NCBI GenBank assembly: GCA_945877425.1
Contig: CAMCRZ010000009.1
Coordinates: 1-64,000, forward strand
Source: an uncultured Treponema sp.
Lineage (GTDB): Bacteria > Spirochaetota > Spirochaetia > Treponematales > Treponemataceae
DNA length: 64,000 nucleotides
Direction of reading: 5' to 3'
This document shows positions 1,186 through 48,022 of this stretch, piece by piece (position 1 is the stretch's first letter; each line of letters begins with the position of its first letter). Below the pieces are notes generated by a model. It was not told the origin of the DNA, did not search any database, and worked only from the letters and a program-made list of their open reading frames with translations. A program made the translations under genes and the position numbers.

Positions 1186-1480
1186 TTATTTGCGTATGAG
1201 GGGATAATTCCGTTTTTTTATTTTATAAATTTTGCCTTTATTTTCGCCAAAGCCAATAATAAGACCGGATGCTTCAAGTTTTTTAAATATTTTACGAACG
1301 CCCGAAGCTGAAAGACTTGTAATTTTTCGAGCAATAGAACTGTTTATAGTTTCATGTTCTTTTAAATATTTTAAAATTATATCGCTACTTTTAGCATATA
1401 TCGCTACTTTATCGCCACTTTGTTGGGATTCTATCGCTGGTTTTTCATTATATCTAATATGCACATACCTGTTTTTAAGT
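1186..1480 (-). pseudogene. C-terminal remnant of an ATP-binding/AAA_4-type regulator (winged-helix end only)
   Basis: SDIILKYLKEHETINSSIARKITSLSASGVRKIFKKLEASGLIIGFGENKGKIYKIK looks like a C-terminal wHTH; the upstream part of the ORF is repeat element DNA (1480-1545), so the gene appears 5' truncated. Confidence 0.5.
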
Positions 1481-1620
1481 TCCTTAAAATTACACGACGA
1501 AGAAAGTTTCAACTTTCGAGAAGTGTAATTCGTTCGCGCCAAGCGAACAGTTCAATAAGGGAGTTACGTTAGGAACTCTAAATTAAATCAAATGGCGCAA
1601 TTTTAGACATTTGATTTTAA
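1480..1620 (+). repeat. Multi-hairpin intergenic element, copy A (homologous to 46354-46492)
   Basis: Shares AGTTCCTTAAAATT, AGAAAGTTTCAACTTT and TTCAATAAG with 46354-46492; four successive stems (1488-1495/1523-1530, 1532-1537/1543-1548, 1561-1565/1574-1578, 1585-1594/1608-1617). Confidence 0.8.
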
Positions 1621-3010: not shown

Positions 3011-4558
3011 ATGAACGAAATCAAACAATCACTTATTGAAGAAATCAACAGGCGCGTGCAGGATAAGATTCTGGAACCGTCAAATGCAAATCTTCTTATA
3101 AAACTTATTCAAAATGCGGAATCGAAAGACGAGGCGATAAACATTGCAGCGTTGGGAACGACATACAAGCGTACGGGGCTTCACTTTGACAAACGGCTTG
3201 AAAAAATGTCCGACAGTATTCGGTATTTCCGCAAAAACGAAAAACTTTCTTTTTATACTGACGATGCAAAACCTGTAAACAAGCTGATTATCGGCGACAA
3301 CTACGAGGCGCTTCAAAACCTTTTGATTCAGTACAGGGGTGCAATCGATGTAATTTACATTGACCCGCCTTACGGAAAAGACAGCATGGGCGAATTTGCC
3401 AGGACGAACTATGAAAATGCCATTACGAGGGACAATCTTCTTTCCATGCTTTACCCGCGTCTGATTCTTGCAAAACAGCTTTTGTCTGACGAAGGCGTGA
3501 TTTTTTGCAGCATTGATGATAAAAATCACGCTTATGTAAAATGTTTGTTTGATGAGGTGTTTGGGGAGGAAAATTCGCTTTCAGTTATTGCATGGGAGAA
3601 AAGAACTAAATGTCAAAATACAGATACTGCAAAGTTCATGCTTCAGCCTAAAGTGGAATATATTTTATGTTATAAAAATTTTAATCACCGAGCAGAATTC
3701 CGATGTCATGTAGTTGGTGAAAAGTTATATCCTGAAAAGGATGCTTATGGAATCTTTCGTTATGAAGAAATTGGGCAAATGAGCAAGAATGGAGTTCGTG
3801 GTCGTGCTAGTATGATTTTTGATATCTTGGGCGTTTACCCGAATGAAGGAAACCAATGGAAATTAGGGAAAGATACAATACTTGAATATTCTACTCGTAA
3901 TGATGGAAAAGATTTACTCTTAATTAACGAAAGACCTTTTAGAAAAATTCGTCCTGAAGATGAGGTTGTTGAAAATTATAAACCATTTTGGGGAATGTAT
4001 GGTGCAGAGCAATACGGTACAGCTGAAACTGCAAAGTCTGAGTTAGATAAAATTTTAGGAACTAAAGAACATGATTTCAACACAGTAAAACCTGTTGAAC
4101 TAATTGAAGATTTAATTTTTCATGCATGTAAAGAGAATTCTATTGTATTGGATTTTTTTGCAGGTAGTGGAACAACTGGTCAATCAACAATGGAATATGT
4201 TAAAGATTATCACAATAATATAACTTACATTCTATGCACAAATAATGAAAAAACTGAAAAGTGCCCCAACGGCATTGCTTACGATGTTACGGCAAAGCGG
4301 CTCAAGCGAATCATGACTGGCGAATGTTATGACGGAACAAAAGACTTTCCGTGGATAAAAGACAACAAGCCTTATGGCGGAAATCTTGATGTTTACGAAA
4401 TCGGTTCGGTTGCAAATTTTGAAACGGCAGAAGGAAAAAGTGCTTTTGATGTAATCGACGAGACACTTTACGGAAAACAAAAGTTTATGACGGTAAAAGA
4501 AAAAATCGACTGGGTATGTCAGAATTTTGAAAAAACACAAAAAAAGGTGGAAGAATAA
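3011..4558 (+). CDS. mod: Type III restriction-modification, site-specific DNA methyltransferase (Mod), beta class
   Basis: VIYIDPPYGKD (motif IV) precedes DFFAGSGTTGQSTMEY (motif I); adjacent Res subunit. Confidence 0.9.
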   Translation: MNEIKQSLIEEINRRVQDKILEPSNANLLIKLIQNAESKDEAINIAALGTTYKRTGLHFDKRLEKMSDSIRYFRKNEKLSFYTDDAKPVNKLIIGDNYEALQNLLIQYRGAIDVIYIDPPYGKDSMGEFARTNYENAITRDNLLSMLYPRLILAKQLLSDEGVIFCSIDDKNHAYVKCLFDEVFGEENSLSVIAWEKRTKCQNTDTAKFMLQPKVEYILCYKNFNHRAEFRCHVVGEKLYPEKDAYGIFRYEEIGQMSKNGVRGRASMIFDILGVYPNEGNQWKLGKDTILEYSTRNDGKDLLLINERPFRKIRPEDEVVENYKPFWGMYGAEQYGTAETAKSELDKILGTKEHDFNTVKPVELIEDLIFHACKENSIVLDFFAGSGTTGQSTMEYVKDYHNNITYILCTNNEKTEKCPNGIAYDVTAKRLKRIMTGECYDGTKDFPWIKDNKPYGGNLDVYEIGSVANFETAEGKSAFDVIDETLYGKQKFMTVKEKIDWVCQNFEKTQKKVEE

Positions 4559-4559
4559 A

Positions 4560-6584
4560 ATGCTCCAGGAAGCAAAAGATTTACAGAAAAATGCCGTAAC
4601 AAAACTTACAAAAATCCTTATGAATGTGACAAGCAGCAAAAAAGAAATAACTTTTAAAGCTCCCACAGGTTCCGGCAAAACTTACATGATGGCAGATTTT
4701 ATGAACCGTGTAATTTGTGCAGACCGAAACGCTGTTTTTATAGTTTCGACACTTTCAAAAAGCAATCTTGCAGCCCAAAATTTTAATTCATTTAAGGAAC
4801 TTTCGGAAAACGGAACTTTTGCAGACATAAATCCGTTTTTAATCAATTCAGATTCAAGCGGAGAAGGAAGCCTTTTTATTCCTCTGGAATACAACGTTTA
4901 CGTTCTGCCCCGCGACTTGTACAAAGATTCAAGCAAGCTTAAAAAAGAAGGAACTTTTGTCAATTTTCTTTCTTCGCTTACAGGCGACACTTTTATGAAA
5001 AATCCGCAAAAAAAAATCTACCTTATAAAAGATGAATGTCATATTGCAACAAGCAACCTTGATGAGTTAAAAGAGTATTTTTGTGCCGTCATAAATTTTT
5101 CTGCCACGCCAAAACTTTCAAGAAAACAGGAACCAGATGTAGAAATTTCAAATGCAGAAGCCGAAAATGCAAAACTCATAAAAAAAGTTGAAGCAGGAAA
5201 TGAAAATGACAGTCTTGAGTGCGCTCTAATGAAATTTGAAAAAATCCGCAGCGACTATATAAATCAGCTTGATGTAAATCCTTGCTTTATAATTCAGATT
5301 TCAAACAAGGAAAAAGCTGAAGAGGAACTTAAAAATACGATAATGCCTGCCCTGCAAAATCATCAGGAACTGAAATGGGTTTATATAAACGACAAAGGCG
5401 GCGAAACAAACGATTCTGGCTTAAAAAAACTTCCGATTTTTAAATGGAAAGATTACATGAAAGGAAAAGCCTCTTCTGTTTCTGTCATCATTTTTAAAAT
5501 GGTCATTTCGGAAGGCTGGGACATTCCAAGGGCGTGCATGCTTTATCAGATTCGAGATTCAAAAAGCAAGCAACTGGACGAACAGGTTATGGGACGCGTA
5601 AGGAGAAATCCTCGGCTGCTTGATTTTGAAAGCTTGAGTGAAGAAGCAAAACAACTTGCCTGTACTGCATGGATTTGGGGAATTCTTCCAAAAGAGGAAA
5701 ATCTTCCGCGACAGGTAAGGCTTTGCACAGATTATAAAATTGAAGAAAATTTCCGTATAACGCCTGTAAAAATTCTCTCTCCCAAAAAAACAAAAAATCC
5801 TGATATGAAAAATTTTCTGGAGCGCTTAAAAGATGACAGTCTGACTCATCCTTCGATTTTTGAAAGTTACAGGAATTTGCAAAAACAGGGAAATGACATT
5901 CAATCTCTTTGCTACGAGTATTCGGACAGCTATAAAAAATGGACTGTTTTTGCTGAACATTTGGGCGAAATAAATTCTTCTTATGAAAAATATATTTGCG
6001 ATTACGAAAAAAGCATGGTCACTTGCGATGAAGTTTGTTTTCCGCTTGAAAGTTGCTTTGTGGAAAATCAAAACAGTCTGACGCTCGACGACTGGATTTG
6101 GTACAGAAAAGATTTTTGCACTGATTTTTCATTTGACAGCGAAGCCGAAAAAAAATGGGCGGAAGTGCTCAAGGACATTCGTTCATCTTCAATCGGAACT
6201 TGCACAAAAAAGCAGTCTGAACTTTTTGAAACGAGCCGCTTTTTGTGGGGCAAAAACTTTCCGCTGAATTCCCAGATAAAATTTGAATACTATCTTGACG
6301 GCATTCATTCTTCTTATCCAGATTTTGTGATGAAAGACAAAAACGGAAAAATCCACATTTTTGAAGTAAAGAGCGTTAATAAATCTTCTTCCCAAAATAT
6401 CGACGAAGAAGAATACGAAAAAAAAGTGAACGCAATCAAGGACTGCTACAAGGAAGCTTCAAAAAAAACAGGACACATTTTTTACCTTCCTGTGCTGGAC
6501 AAAGCACAATGGCAGATTACACGCTTTTCCGACGGCAAGGGCGAGAACATTACAAAAGATGAATTTGTGGAATCGCTAAAGTAA
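4560..6584 (+). CDS. res: Type III restriction enzyme Res subunit (DEAD/DECH helicase + PD-(D/E)xK-like nuclease)
   Basis: KAPTGSGKTYMMADF Walker A, KDECH, C-terminal YPDFVMKDKNGKIHIFEVK; start immediately after mod stop (ORF track start at 4527 is probably too early). Confidence 0.9.
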   Translation: MLQEAKDLQKNAVTKLTKILMNVTSSKKEITFKAPTGSGKTYMMADFMNRVICADRNAVFIVSTLSKSNLAAQNFNSFKELSENGTFADINPFLINSDSSGEGSLFIPLEYNVYVLPRDLYKDSSKLKKEGTFVNFLSSLTGDTFMKNPQKKIYLIKDECHIATSNLDELKEYFCAVINFSATPKLSRKQEPDVEISNAEAENAKLIKKVEAGNENDSLECALMKFEKIRSDYINQLDVNPCFIIQISNKEKAEEELKNTIMPALQNHQELKWVYINDKGGETNDSGLKKLPIFKWKDYMKGKASSVSVIIFKMVISEGWDIPRACMLYQIRDSKSKQLDEQVMGRVRRNPRLLDFESLSEEAKQLACTAWIWGILPKEENLPRQVRLCTDYKIEENFRITPVKILSPKKTKNPDMKNFLERLKDDSLTHPSIFESYRNLQKQGNDIQSLCYEYSDSYKKWTVFAEHLGEINSSYEKYICDYEKSMVTCDEVCFPLESCFVENQNSLTLDDWIWYRKDFCTDFSFDSEAEKKWAEVLKDIRSSSIGTCTKKQSELFETSRFLWGKNFPLNSQIKFEYYLDGIHSSYPDFVMKDKNGKIHIFEVKSVNKSSSQNIDEEEYEKKVNAIKDCYKEASKKTGHIFYLPVLDKAQWQITRFSDGKGENITKDEFVESLK

Positions 6585-44047: not shown

Positions 44048-45676
44048 ATGACAGGCAGAGAAAAAAATTTTCACTCCAGTTCAGTTTTAAAAAAAACATC
44101 AGTATTTCTCTGTCTTGTAATTCTTGCAATTTCAATCTGCGCTTTTGTTTTCCCTTTTTGTAAAGCAATATCTCCTTTATTTAAAAGCGGTTATGGCGCA
44201 GTTGATTTTAAATCACTTCTTCCAAAAATTTCATACACTTTCAGGCAGGCAATTCTTTCCCTTTTGCTTTCACTTTTAATCGGCGTGCCTTCAGGATTTT
44301 TTCTGGCAAGACGGAATTTTCCCTTTAGAAATTTTCTTTCTTCTTTTGCAGCAGTTCCGCTTGCAGTTCCGCCTTTAATAATGGCATTAGGTTATGTAAG
44401 CGTTTTTGGTTTTTCAGGTTTAATAAATTCTTTTTTAATGAATTTGTTTTCCCTTTCACAGCCGCCTTTTAAATTCATCTATTCACTTTGGGGAGTTGTA
44501 ATTGTTCAGGGCTTTTACAATTTTCCGCTTATAATGACAACAGTTGCAGACTCATGGAATTCAATTGACGCTTCACAAAAAGAAGCTGCCCGCTTACTTG
44601 GAGCAAGTGAAATAAAAATATTTTTTACCATTACACTTCATCAGCTTTTAAGTGCAATTTCAAGTGCGTGCATTCCTGTTTTCCTGTACTGTTTTTTTTC
44701 TTTTATGATTGTAATGATGTTCGGTCCTCTTGGAAAAACAACAATGGAAGTTGCCATTTACACCAGTGCAAGAAATGTGCTTGCTTTAAAACAGACAGCC
44801 GTTCTTGCCCTTATAGAAACTTTATGTGCTTACACAATTCTGATTTTTTACAATGCACTGGAAAATAAAACTTCGCCTGTAAAACATTCTGTTGCTTTAA
44901 AAGCCAGACGGAAAAATCTAACTGTTAAGGAATTTATTGCAGCACTGCCTTTGATTTTTTTAGTTCTGATTTTTTTTGTATTTCCACTCGCTTCTATTTT
45001 CATTCAGTCTTTTACAGATAAAGTTTCTGGAAAAATTATTTTTTCTTTTAAAACCTGGAAATATATTTTAACGGCAAAAACTTTTTTAAAATCTTTTCTA
45101 AATACAATTGCATCTGCTTCCTTAACGGGTCTGCTTTCTACGATATGCGGATTTACATTCAGCTGCATTCTCTGGAAAAATGCACGGAACAAAAAGCTTT
45201 TCTTTGCACTTAAAAACATTTCTCTTTTGCCAATGTCAATTTCTTCCGTAGTTACAGGCTTAAGTTTTATTTATCTTATAAAAAAAGGAAATTTCTTTAC
45301 TTTAGTTCTGGCACAAACGGCGCTTACATGGCCATTTGCATTCAGGCAGATTTTTTCTCAATTTAAAAAAATTCCGGCGGAAGTTTATGAAAGCGGAATT
45401 CTTCTTTCAAAAAACTACAGCGACTTTATTTTTAATATTTTAATACCTTACACAAAAAACGGAATTTTAAGTTCCATAGGATTTTGTTTTGCATTAAGTG
45501 CAGCAGACGCATCACTTCCGCTTGTTCTTTCCATGAGAAATTTTGAAACACTTTCGCTTTTCGTTTACAGGCTTGCAGGAAGCTTTCACTTCAGGGAATC
45601 AAGCGCAGCAGGAATTATTTTAACGGCACTTTGCATTTTTGTTTTCAGACTTTCAGTAAAACTTAAGGAAAAATAA
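44048..45676 (+). CDS. thiP: Thiamine ABC transporter permease (two fused permease domains)
   Basis: Two binding-protein-dependent transport modules; AVPPLIMALGYV...SWNSIDASQKEAARLLGAS; start close to thiB. Confidence 0.9.
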   Translation: MTGREKNFHSSSVLKKTSVFLCLVILAISICAFVFPFCKAISPLFKSGYGAVDFKSLLPKISYTFRQAILSLLLSLLIGVPSGFFLARRNFPFRNFLSSFAAVPLAVPPLIMALGYVSVFGFSGLINSFLMNLFSLSQPPFKFIYSLWGVVIVQGFYNFPLIMTTVADSWNSIDASQKEAARLLGASEIKIFFTITLHQLLSAISSACIPVFLYCFFSFMIVMMFGPLGKTTMEVAIYTSARNVLALKQTAVLALIETLCAYTILIFYNALENKTSPVKHSVALKARRKNLTVKEFIAALPLIFLVLIFFVFPLASIFIQSFTDKVSGKIIFSFKTWKYILTAKTFLKSFLNTIASASLTGLLSTICGFTFSCILWKNARNKKLFFALKNISLLPMSISSVVTGLSFIYLIKKGNFFTLVLAQTALTWPFAFRQIFSQFKKIPAEVYESGILLSKNYSDFIFNILIPYTKNGILSSIGFCFALSAADASLPLVLSMRNFETLSLFVYRLAGSFHFRESSAAGIILTALCIFVFRLSVKLKEK

Positions 45677-46353
45677 TGGAATACTTCAGTGCAGAAAATT
45701 TAACAAAGGAATTTGACTCGGCAAAAATCAGCGTAACTTTTTCTGTTAAGCAGAATACTTTTACTTCTATAGTTGGACCAAGCGGCAGCGGCAAGTCTAC
45801 AGTTTTAAGAATGATTGCAGGTCTTGAACAGTGCAACAATGGAAAAATTTTTCTTGACGGAAATGAAATTACAAATGTCAAACCTCAGGACAGACAGCTT
45901 GGAATGGTTTTTCAGAATGCATCACTTTTTATGAATATGAATGTTGAACAGAACATTGCTTACGGCTTAAAGTGCAAGGGCTTTAAAAAAAATGAAATCA
46001 GCGTTCTTGTAAAGGAATGGCTTTCTAAAGTTCAGATGGAAGGTTTTGAAAAACGCAGCTGTTCTTCATTAAGCGGCGGCGAATCCCAGCGGATTGCACT
46101 GGCACGGACTCTTATTATAAACCCAAAGCTTTTGCTTTTAGACGAACCGCTTAGCGCTTTGGATGCACCTTTACGAAAATCACTTGCGGCTCAAATAAGG
46201 AAGCTCCAGTTATCTCTCGGCATAACAGTTTTGATGGTCACTCACGATATAGAAGAAGCTAAATCAGTTTCGGACAAAATCATTCTGTTAAAGAAAGGTC
46301 AGATTTGCTGGACAGGAATTCCTTTAGATTTTAAGGACGACTTTTTAGTTTAA
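45676..46353 (+). CDS. thiQ: Thiamine ABC transporter ATP-binding protein
   Basis: IVGPSGSGKSTVLRMIAGLEQ, SSLSGGESQRIALARTLIINPKLLLLDEPLSALDAPLR. Confidence 0.92.
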   Translation: MEYFSAENLTKEFDSAKISVTFSVKQNTFTSIVGPSGSGKSTVLRMIAGLEQCNNGKIFLDGNEITNVKPQDRQLGMVFQNASLFMNMNVEQNIAYGLKCKGFKKNEISVLVKEWLSKVQMEGFEKRSCSSLSGGESQRIALARTLIINPKLLLLDEPLSALDAPLRKSLAAQIRKLQLSLGITVLMVTHDIEEAKSVSDKIILLKKGQICWTGIPLDFKDDFLV

Positions 46354-46492
46354 AAGTTCCTTAAAATTGCAACCGGAGAAAGTTTCAACTTTAGAGGATT
46401 GCAATTACGTGCACGAAAGTGCACAATTCAATAAGACAGTTTTGCAAAAACTGTAAGTTAAAATAGACGCGCTATTTGTGCGGCTATTTTAA
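46354..46492 (+). repeat. Multi-hairpin intergenic element, copy B
   Basis: Fills the gap between convergent thiQ and rluA-like genes; stems 46365-46372/46399-46406, 46409-46414/46419-46424, 46436-46443/46447-46454, 46458-46466/46484-46492. Confidence 0.8.
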
Positions 46493-47823
46493 AAATCAGC
46501 AGGACATTCAAAGTACATTCTCTTTCCGCTTACCGGATGAGTAAACTCCAGAGTCTGCGCATGAAGCATTAACCGCTCGCCCTTTTCGCATTTTCCGTAA
46601 AGCGTATCTCCCACAATAGGCACACCAAAGCCATGACTGTCGGCACAAGCAAGACGCAGCTGATGAGTTCTTCCTGTTAGCGGAATAAATTTTACTCTTG
46701 TAACATTACGGATTTTTCCTGAAGGTGATTTGTATTTTTCTACATTTAAAATCTTCCACTGAGTAACTGCTTTTTTTCCGTACACTTCATCCCAAATCTG
46801 ATGAGGTCTGTTTTCCACATCAAGTCTGAAATAAAGTTCGCTTTCTCCTTCTTGGGGAATTCCTTTTTTTACAAGAACGTCATCAACTAATGCAACGTAA
46901 GTTTTTTTTACAGTGCGCTCTTCAAACTGACGATTTAAATTTCTGTGGGCTTCTTTTGTAAATGCCAGAACTAAAAGCCCGGAAGTTTCCATGTCAAGGC
47001 GATGGACTGAAGGCTGTTCAATTGAAGAAGGGAAAAGGCGGCGCACTCTGTTTACAATGCAGTCTTGTTTTTCAATTCCTCTTCCAGGCACGCTGAGCAA
47101 ACCGCTTTGCTTGTTTACAACTATAATTGAACTGTCGGCGTAAAGAATTTTCAGTCCCAGAATTGAAGGCAGAAGAATTCCGCAACGTTCGTCACAAGGC
47201 GGATATTTTTGCCTGTTTATTTTTCCTTTTGCATTTCCGTAAAAAATTTCGCACATACTTTCGGGAACAAGATTATTTTTAAAAGCGTAACTTAAAAGTT
47301 TCGGGGCGCAGCATTCACCTGTTCCTGTAGGAGCAAGTGCACCTTTAATATTTTCAGCGCAAATTTCTTTTAAAGATTTTTCTGTTTTGTCGGCACAATG
47401 AAAACTGTAAAGTGAAAAAACTTTTTCCAAAGACTGATCTGTCAGCTTCCTGCGTTCTTCTTCCAAAGCGGCTGTGCTGTTTCCGGCGGATTTTTCTTTT
47501 TCAATTTCAAAAGTAAGTTCGTGTATTTTTTTGTCGTTAGGTGCAAGGGCTTTTTCAATTTTTTCCGGGCTTACAACTGGCTCTACGTAAGTACATTCAA
47601 AGGGAAAAGTGCCGCTTAATTTTTTTGCACTGCCGGAATTTGTTACGAGAATTTTTTCGCTGCCTTCAGAGTTTCTGCACACAAGAATTCCTATCATTAC
47701 ACCAAGGCTGTCACGGCTGGAAGATGGTGCATTTTGTTTTAGAAATAATTTTCTTTCATCAAGTGCATCTGCTATGATGCTGCAGAATTTCAAGGCGCAT
47801 TCTTCTGGAAACGGTGGAAACAT
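46489..47823 (-). CDS. RluA-family pseudouridine synthase
   Basis: VVNKQSGLLSVPGRG...SSIEQPSVHRLDMETSGLLVLAFTKEAHRNLNRQFEERTVKKTYVALV...GRTHQLRLACA; start at MFPPFPEE is preferred over the track start. Confidence 0.93.
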   Translation of the reverse strand: MFPPFPEECALKFCSIIADALDERKLFLKQNAPSSSRDSLGVMIGILVCRNSEGSEKILVTNSGSAKKLSGTFPFECTYVEPVVSPEKIEKALAPNDKKIHELTFEIEKEKSAGNSTAALEEERRKLTDQSLEKVFSLYSFHCADKTEKSLKEICAENIKGALAPTGTGECCAPKLLSYAFKNNLVPESMCEIFYGNAKGKINRQKYPPCDERCGILLPSILGLKILYADSSIIVVNKQSGLLSVPGRGIEKQDCIVNRVRRLFPSSIEQPSVHRLDMETSGLLVLAFTKEAHRNLNRQFEERTVKKTYVALVDDVLVKKGIPQEGESELYFRLDVENRPHQIWDEVYGKKAVTQWKILNVEKYKSPSGKIRNVTRVKFIPLTGRTHQLRLACADSHGFGVPIVGDTLYGKCEKGERLMLHAQTLEFTHPVSGKRMYFECPADF

Positions 47824-47905
47824 AGATGGATTATAAACGAGACTTTTTTTTCTATCAACACCAAGGTGCCTGGTGCGTAAGCCTAACTGCCTTTTACTCC
47901 AGAAC

Positions 47906-48022
47906 GCTGCACAGAACAATACACTTTTCCTGCCAAGCGCCAGCCGCAAAAGTTAAAGCCTGCACTTTTTTGCAAAGCCCCTCTGGCAAAGCCAAAACTT
48001 CCTCGCAAGAACAGGCGCCGCC
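47906..48022 (+). repeat. ~117-bp GC-richer dispersed repeat, copy G1
   Basis: gctgcaca...gcmgcaaaagttaaag...gcaa(a)gcccctct..aaagc.aa.acttcctcgcaag.acagg.gc, aligns with 53640-53756. Confidence 0.75.

Follow-up and report, generated by a model that had tools for sequence, protein, structure and literature searches.

We suggest that two short intergenic elements, copies A and B, in a 64,000-nt stretch of DNA from an uncultured Treponema sp. (the window, the whole stretch analysed) belong to one Treponemataceae family of small non-autonomous mobile elements, the TD-1/TD-2 of Rfam, with a fold kept for recognition in trans. The probability that we assign to this reading is about 0.78. A preliminary description, made from the sequence of the window, had paired the two copies, had taken compensatory changes in four stems as a sign of selection on a folded nucleic acid, and had placed the element in no known family. 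The folded nucleic acid stands; the statement about families does not, because Rfam TD-1 (RF03155) and TD-2 (RF03162) cover the element, and its mobile, tandemly arrayed nature had been missed.

Copy A is a full-length class M element, with hairpins H1 to H4, on the + strand at positions 1480–1622 of the window (1480–1620 as first described). It scores 137.7 bits, with a rough E-value of 9.8e-26, against R2, a full-length covariance model with 144 positions and 46 pairs. Both copies and all four stem pairs named in the preliminary description are present where it had placed them. H1 (1488–1530), read directly, is formed by AATTACAC at 1488–1495 and GTGTAATT at 1523–1530. The block AGAAAGTTTCAACTTT, previously considered unpaired, is actually a nested hairpin on top of this stem, with GAAAGT (1502–1507) pairing with ACTTTC (1512–1517) to give a cap that reads GAAAGT-TTCA-ACTTTC in full and is itself covarying. 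H2 (GTTCGC/GCGAAC, 1532–1548), seen in the sequence and by covariation, has a loop that is often GNRA in relatives, and is followed by a conserved linker, TTCAATAAG, with an AATAA core (1551–1559). H3 (GAGTT/AACTC, 1561–1578) was read directly and found to covary, and H4 (AAATCAAATG/CATTTGATTT, 1585–1617) is defined by the sequence and the full-length alignment; all of these lie on the + strand. Next to copy A is the C-terminal part of a Fic-domain gene (1186–1479, − strand), recognised by homology with the intact 356-aa Fic gene of a relative (L261), which aligns to window positions 1213–1486 and ends at copy A. Since the homology stops at copy A and the C-terminal part alone is left, the break in the Fic gene coincides with copy A.

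Copy B, also a class M element on the + strand, is at 46357–46495 (R2, 106.2 bits, rough E-value 1.7e-19) and was also read directly. Its H1 is at 46365–46372/46399–46406, its H2 at 46409–46414/46419–46424, and its linker at 46427–46435, after which come H3 and H4. The stop codon of an ABC transporter ATPase gene (45676–46353, + strand) is immediately 5′ of copy B, and the stop codon of a pseudouridine synthase gene (46489–47949, − strand) is inside its 3′ end. Copy B thus occupies the interval that separates two convergent genes, touching both stop codons. Some other features of the window were observed near copy A. A short repeat just past it, at 1823–1863, occurs again at 2531–2571 (98%), and the segment 1731–1818 has matches at many places in related genomes. 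The − strand of 1871–2872 carries a PIN-domain gene and an HTH gene, possibly parts of toxin–antitoxin loci, and 3011–6584 contains an N6/N4 DNA methylase gene followed by a ResIII helicase gene, resembling a type III restriction–modification system.

The evidence for a conserved fold comes from two alignments, with very strong covariation in every stem, and from the loops. In the core alignment of 45 distinct sequences, double-sided changes are seen in 25 of the 28 pairs, and 98.5% of the cells are paired. The covariation score is 0.528, compared with 0.148 for shuffled alignments, with none of 500 shuffles reaching the observed value, and ≤0.10 for slid controls. Within H1, all 8 outer pairs and all 6 cap pairs covary. 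The full-length alignment of 21 sequences agrees with the core result and adds H4, with 13 of 15 pairs covarying, so that each unit has four or five covarying hairpins. Which strand is folded? Among pairs flanked by Watson–Crick pairs, class M elements have 60 G.T and 13 A.C, compared with 5 G.T and 7 A.C for class S, the second class described below, and GNRA tetraloops number 39 on the + strand and 0 on the other strand; all these counts are inflated by relatedness and by a slight lean of the models to G.U. The excess of G.T and the GNRA loops suggest that class M folds on the + strand. A transcribed RNA with its own function would also fit the GNRA-like loops and the wobble bias. The same RNA-like features on the + strand favour a process in which a structured RNA is reverse transcribed and inserted in trans, as for a bacterial SINE. 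We consider this very improbable, as it is already weakened by the lack of any RVT_1 match, hence of a host reverse transcriptase, in the five TD-rich genomes G120, G133, G044, G049, and G109.

The family is large. A search of the 2.4-Mb genome for the exact pattern AGTTCCTTAAAATT-N-AGAAAGTTTCAACTTT gave two hits, against none in the reversed control and none in viral contigs, while a relaxed pattern gave a third copy in this genome and two in Treponema metagenome-assembled genomes. Covariance model searches, as the preliminary description had proposed, then revealed further copies both in this genome and in other Treponema genomes. R1, a model of the core built from five copies, found at least 8 copies in this genome (rough E-values from 8e-24 to 3e-10) and gave hits in 67 of the 196 genomes searched from the genus. 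With R2, there are at least 9 copies in this genome and from at least 45 to at least 102 in complete or near-complete Treponema genomes, these copy numbers being lower bounds. Thus, many more copies exist, and their stems are kept. The outcome that the preliminary description had named as a refutation, a lack of other copies or a loss of the stems in them, was not observed. In a sample of the phylum, 34 of 298 genomes have copies; these belong to 8 genera, all in the Treponemataceae, and no copy was seen outside this family among the 298 genomes. The unit, of about 143 nt, has no ORF, and copies are either solitary or, often, arranged head to tail in unit-exact arrays with at most five members, joined at TTTAAAC-N-TTCCTTAAAAT. 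Adjacent units in arrays (L044, L079, and others) often alternate in stem type, for example ATGCGGCATTG beside ATTCAACAGTCG, which looks like avoidance or loss of identical neighbours.

The mobility of class M was seen by comparison of two sister genomes, G120 and G133, which are roughly 90–97% identical where aligned. One copy in G120 (L078:1505) interrupts a CPBP-protease gene (Rce1-like, CAAX-protease-like), and another (L089:2099) interrupts an Rpn-type (Transposase_31) gene; in G133, the two genes are uninterrupted at the exact site, and both of these polarised gene insertions come from this single genome pair. Conversely, the site of the G133 copy c1b:317526 (L152:17526) is empty in G120. 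An apparent empty counterpart of G133 c1a:262159 was rejected, as it was not clean. Class M insertions have TTC on both sides, often together with the preceding base, giving an (N)TTC direct repeat, although at c1b:317526 of G133 the match does not extend to that base. Part of the duplicated (N)TTC could thus be the element's own end. The 5′ and 3′ junctions of one copy are more alike than junctions of different copies (56 ends, z = 4.1, p = 0.0005). Array lengths also differ between G120 and G133, with 5 and 2, 1 and 2, and 2 and 1 copies, respectively. We also observed a composite repeat of about 0.5 kb at L082, L087, L088, L089, L092, L093, and L095 in G120 and at L133 in G133. Its ends, CAGGG.TTACGCATGA, are inverted, it forms strong GC-rich hairpins, and its 3′ end resembles a terminator; it occurs with or without a TD unit at one junction, GCTTGCCA/CGGTC, the presence or absence of TD being precise.

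Class S was found at Shine–Dalgarno motifs in the related genomes G120 and G133 and terminates in CATAAAAACTTTTGCAG. On the opposite strand, it forms a structured 5′ leader ending in CTGCAAAAGTTTTTATGGGAG-N-ATG, which brings a new GGGAG right before the start codon of many genes. In the parts of these two genomes that were examined, 33 class S ends were counted, the majority with a further GGAG(G) immediately 5′ of the leader. In one stretch of G133, a start codon, with an ORF of at least 60 codons required, follows 18 of 19 class S ends, compared with 492 of 2441 other GGGAG/GGAGG sites. The genes that follow include homologues of FtsY, HslU (HslU-like), DivIC, FlaA, a flagellar rod/hook gene, and Pta, as well as genes for a phosphoglycerate mutase-like protein, phosphoglucomutase, a Cys/Met enzyme, and permeases. 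Three presence/absence pairs, all unpolarised, were available. A hydroxyisobutyrate dehydrogenase-like gene has class S in G133 and GGAGGAG in G120, an Rpn gene has class S in G133 and CCGGAGGTTTTATG in G120, and a surface-protein-like gene has class S in G120 and ACGGAGGTTTTATG in G133. In these three pairs, the GGAG-type motif (a Shine–Dalgarno GGAGG) is single when the site is empty and is present at both ends when it is filled, in the form of GGAG to GGAGGT flanks.

How does the element relate to the Rfam entries? A scan of the window at the default cut-offs gave nothing, because the copies there fall short of the gathering cut-off. A permissive scan placed TD-1 over H1–H3 on the opposite strand, with up to 73.6 bits; the gathering cut-off of 64.5 bits is passed by close relatives (73.6, 69.6, and 68.7), but not by copy A (38.2). 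TD-2 was placed over H2–H4 on the same strand, with a best score of 45.9 bits (E = 0.00037), below its 48.7-bit cut-off at all loci tested. From the positions and strands of these matches, TD-1 and TD-2 describe a single unit, in parts that overlap and lie on opposite strands. Both are in clan CL00124. TD-1 is filed as cis-regulatory, and its strand is opposite to the folding strand of class M but is the leader strand of class S, where it scores 42–55 bits; its model leaves out H4, the mobility, the arrays, and the termini. TD-2 matches the + strand but is filed as an sRNA and covers only part of the unit. These Rfam types, together with the position of class S upstream of start codons, favour a mainly regulatory or structural RNA family that has spread by duplication rather than transposition. 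We find this improbable, since the copies that interrupt genes and the sites that are cleanly empty speak against a reading without any mobility, as do the window copies, one in a broken Fic gene and the other between convergent genes.

A non-autonomous mobile element may be compared with known small elements. REP/BIME sequences, associated with RAYT, occur as about 100 intergenic, palindromic, non-coding copies per genome, in tandem or mosaic clusters (PMC2817692). The TD element is similar in its high intergenic copy number and in being palindromic, non-coding, and clustered. However, its unit is about 143 nt with four different hairpins, rather than a 20–40 nt palindrome with a conserved GTAG-type foot, it inserts in genes with a short direct repeat, and the TD-rich closed genomes lack RAYT. 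A Y1/HUH transposase of the IS200/IS605 or RAYT type could still move it as folded ssDNA, as proposed for REP/BIME. One-strand hairpins near both ends, the lack of coding capacity, the multi-copy intergenic spread, the recurring short site at the ends, and the strand asymmetry are consistent with this, and 12 of about 21 genomes with a Y1 protein of about 250 aa also carry TD. Nevertheless, we think it unlikely, because direct repeats at both ends are atypical of such elements and because Y1_Tnp has no match in the closed TD-rich genomes G133, G044, G049, and G109. No Y1/RAYT transposase was found in those four or in G000, and G120, which has recent insertions, has Y1_Tnp only as a stop-riddled remnant. 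An IS200/605 guide-like pairing of the bases preceding H4 with the target (GAA/TTC and GAG/CTC) was suggestive, but is not claimed here, as it is confounded with the H3 stem.

Bacterial MITEs are small, non-autonomous, multi-copy elements with direct repeats at their ends (PMC10969869). The TD element shares these properties, with direct repeats of (N)TTC for class M and GGAG to GGAGGT for class S. Terminal inverted repeats, if present, would be limited to TTTAAAA-like ends of about 6–7 bp, and the element differs in an internal fold kept by compensatory change. A DDE transposase or a tyrosine or serine recombinase might act in trans on dsDNA through the short ends (TTAAAA near both), with the hairpins serving transcript stability, insulation, or the like. 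This is a real possibility, although the balance is against it. The short direct repeats, the weakly inverted TTTAAAA ends, and the unit-exact arrays would be explained, but the compensatory change in every internal stem would not, and the candidates IS110 and TnpB are not general. An IS110 transposase, needed for a bridge RNA, is absent from G133, G044, G049, G143, and G168, and TnpB, needed for an omega RNA, has no match above the cut-off in any TD-rich genome tested. Integron attC sites are folded single-strand recombination sites in array-like units. TD arrays differ from these in having four hairpins per unit and no cassettes between units, and no cassette structure was seen around TD copies. 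The H4 ends, GTTAAA/TTTAAC, had suggested attC, but this identity was rejected for a near-perfect hairpin without cassettes.

No recurrent transposase adjoins the copies, and the neighbouring genes are diverse. By co-occurrence, Y1, RT, IS110, TnpB, and Rpn were each rejected as the mobiliser, as none is present in all TD-rich genomes; Rpn showed no link as a partner, and it gave no match in G042, which carries at least 10 copies. The absence of the usual enzymes of small elements from the closed genomes points to an unrecognised mobilisation system. Most likely, TD is a non-autonomous element, moved by machinery that acts in trans and recognises one of its strands in folded form. We prefer this because compensatory changes preserve the internal stems, and an element with plain terminal repeats would have no need of them. 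The fold would be required for a transposase supplied in trans to recognise the + strand as a folded single strand, either ssDNA or RNA. Arrays would probably grow when a unit inserts into the repeated junction AAAC-N-TTCCTTAAAA, or through recombination there.

These results bring together two orphan Rfam entries, of unknown function there, as a single mobile element whose life cycle can be tested. We propose, tentatively and with the chances a little short of even, that within this family, recognised as a single strand and moved by unrecognised machinery in trans, one class homes to Shine–Dalgarno motifs and duplicates them. It would thus place structured leaders, each with its own ribosome-binding site, before dozens of core genes that have no relation to each other, and transposition would in this way assemble a scattered regulon under post-transcriptional control. 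To our knowledge, class S would be the first mobile element known to target ribosome-binding sites and yet spare the gene, and it would be a common source of leaders for FtsY, HslU, Pta, FlaA, and others.
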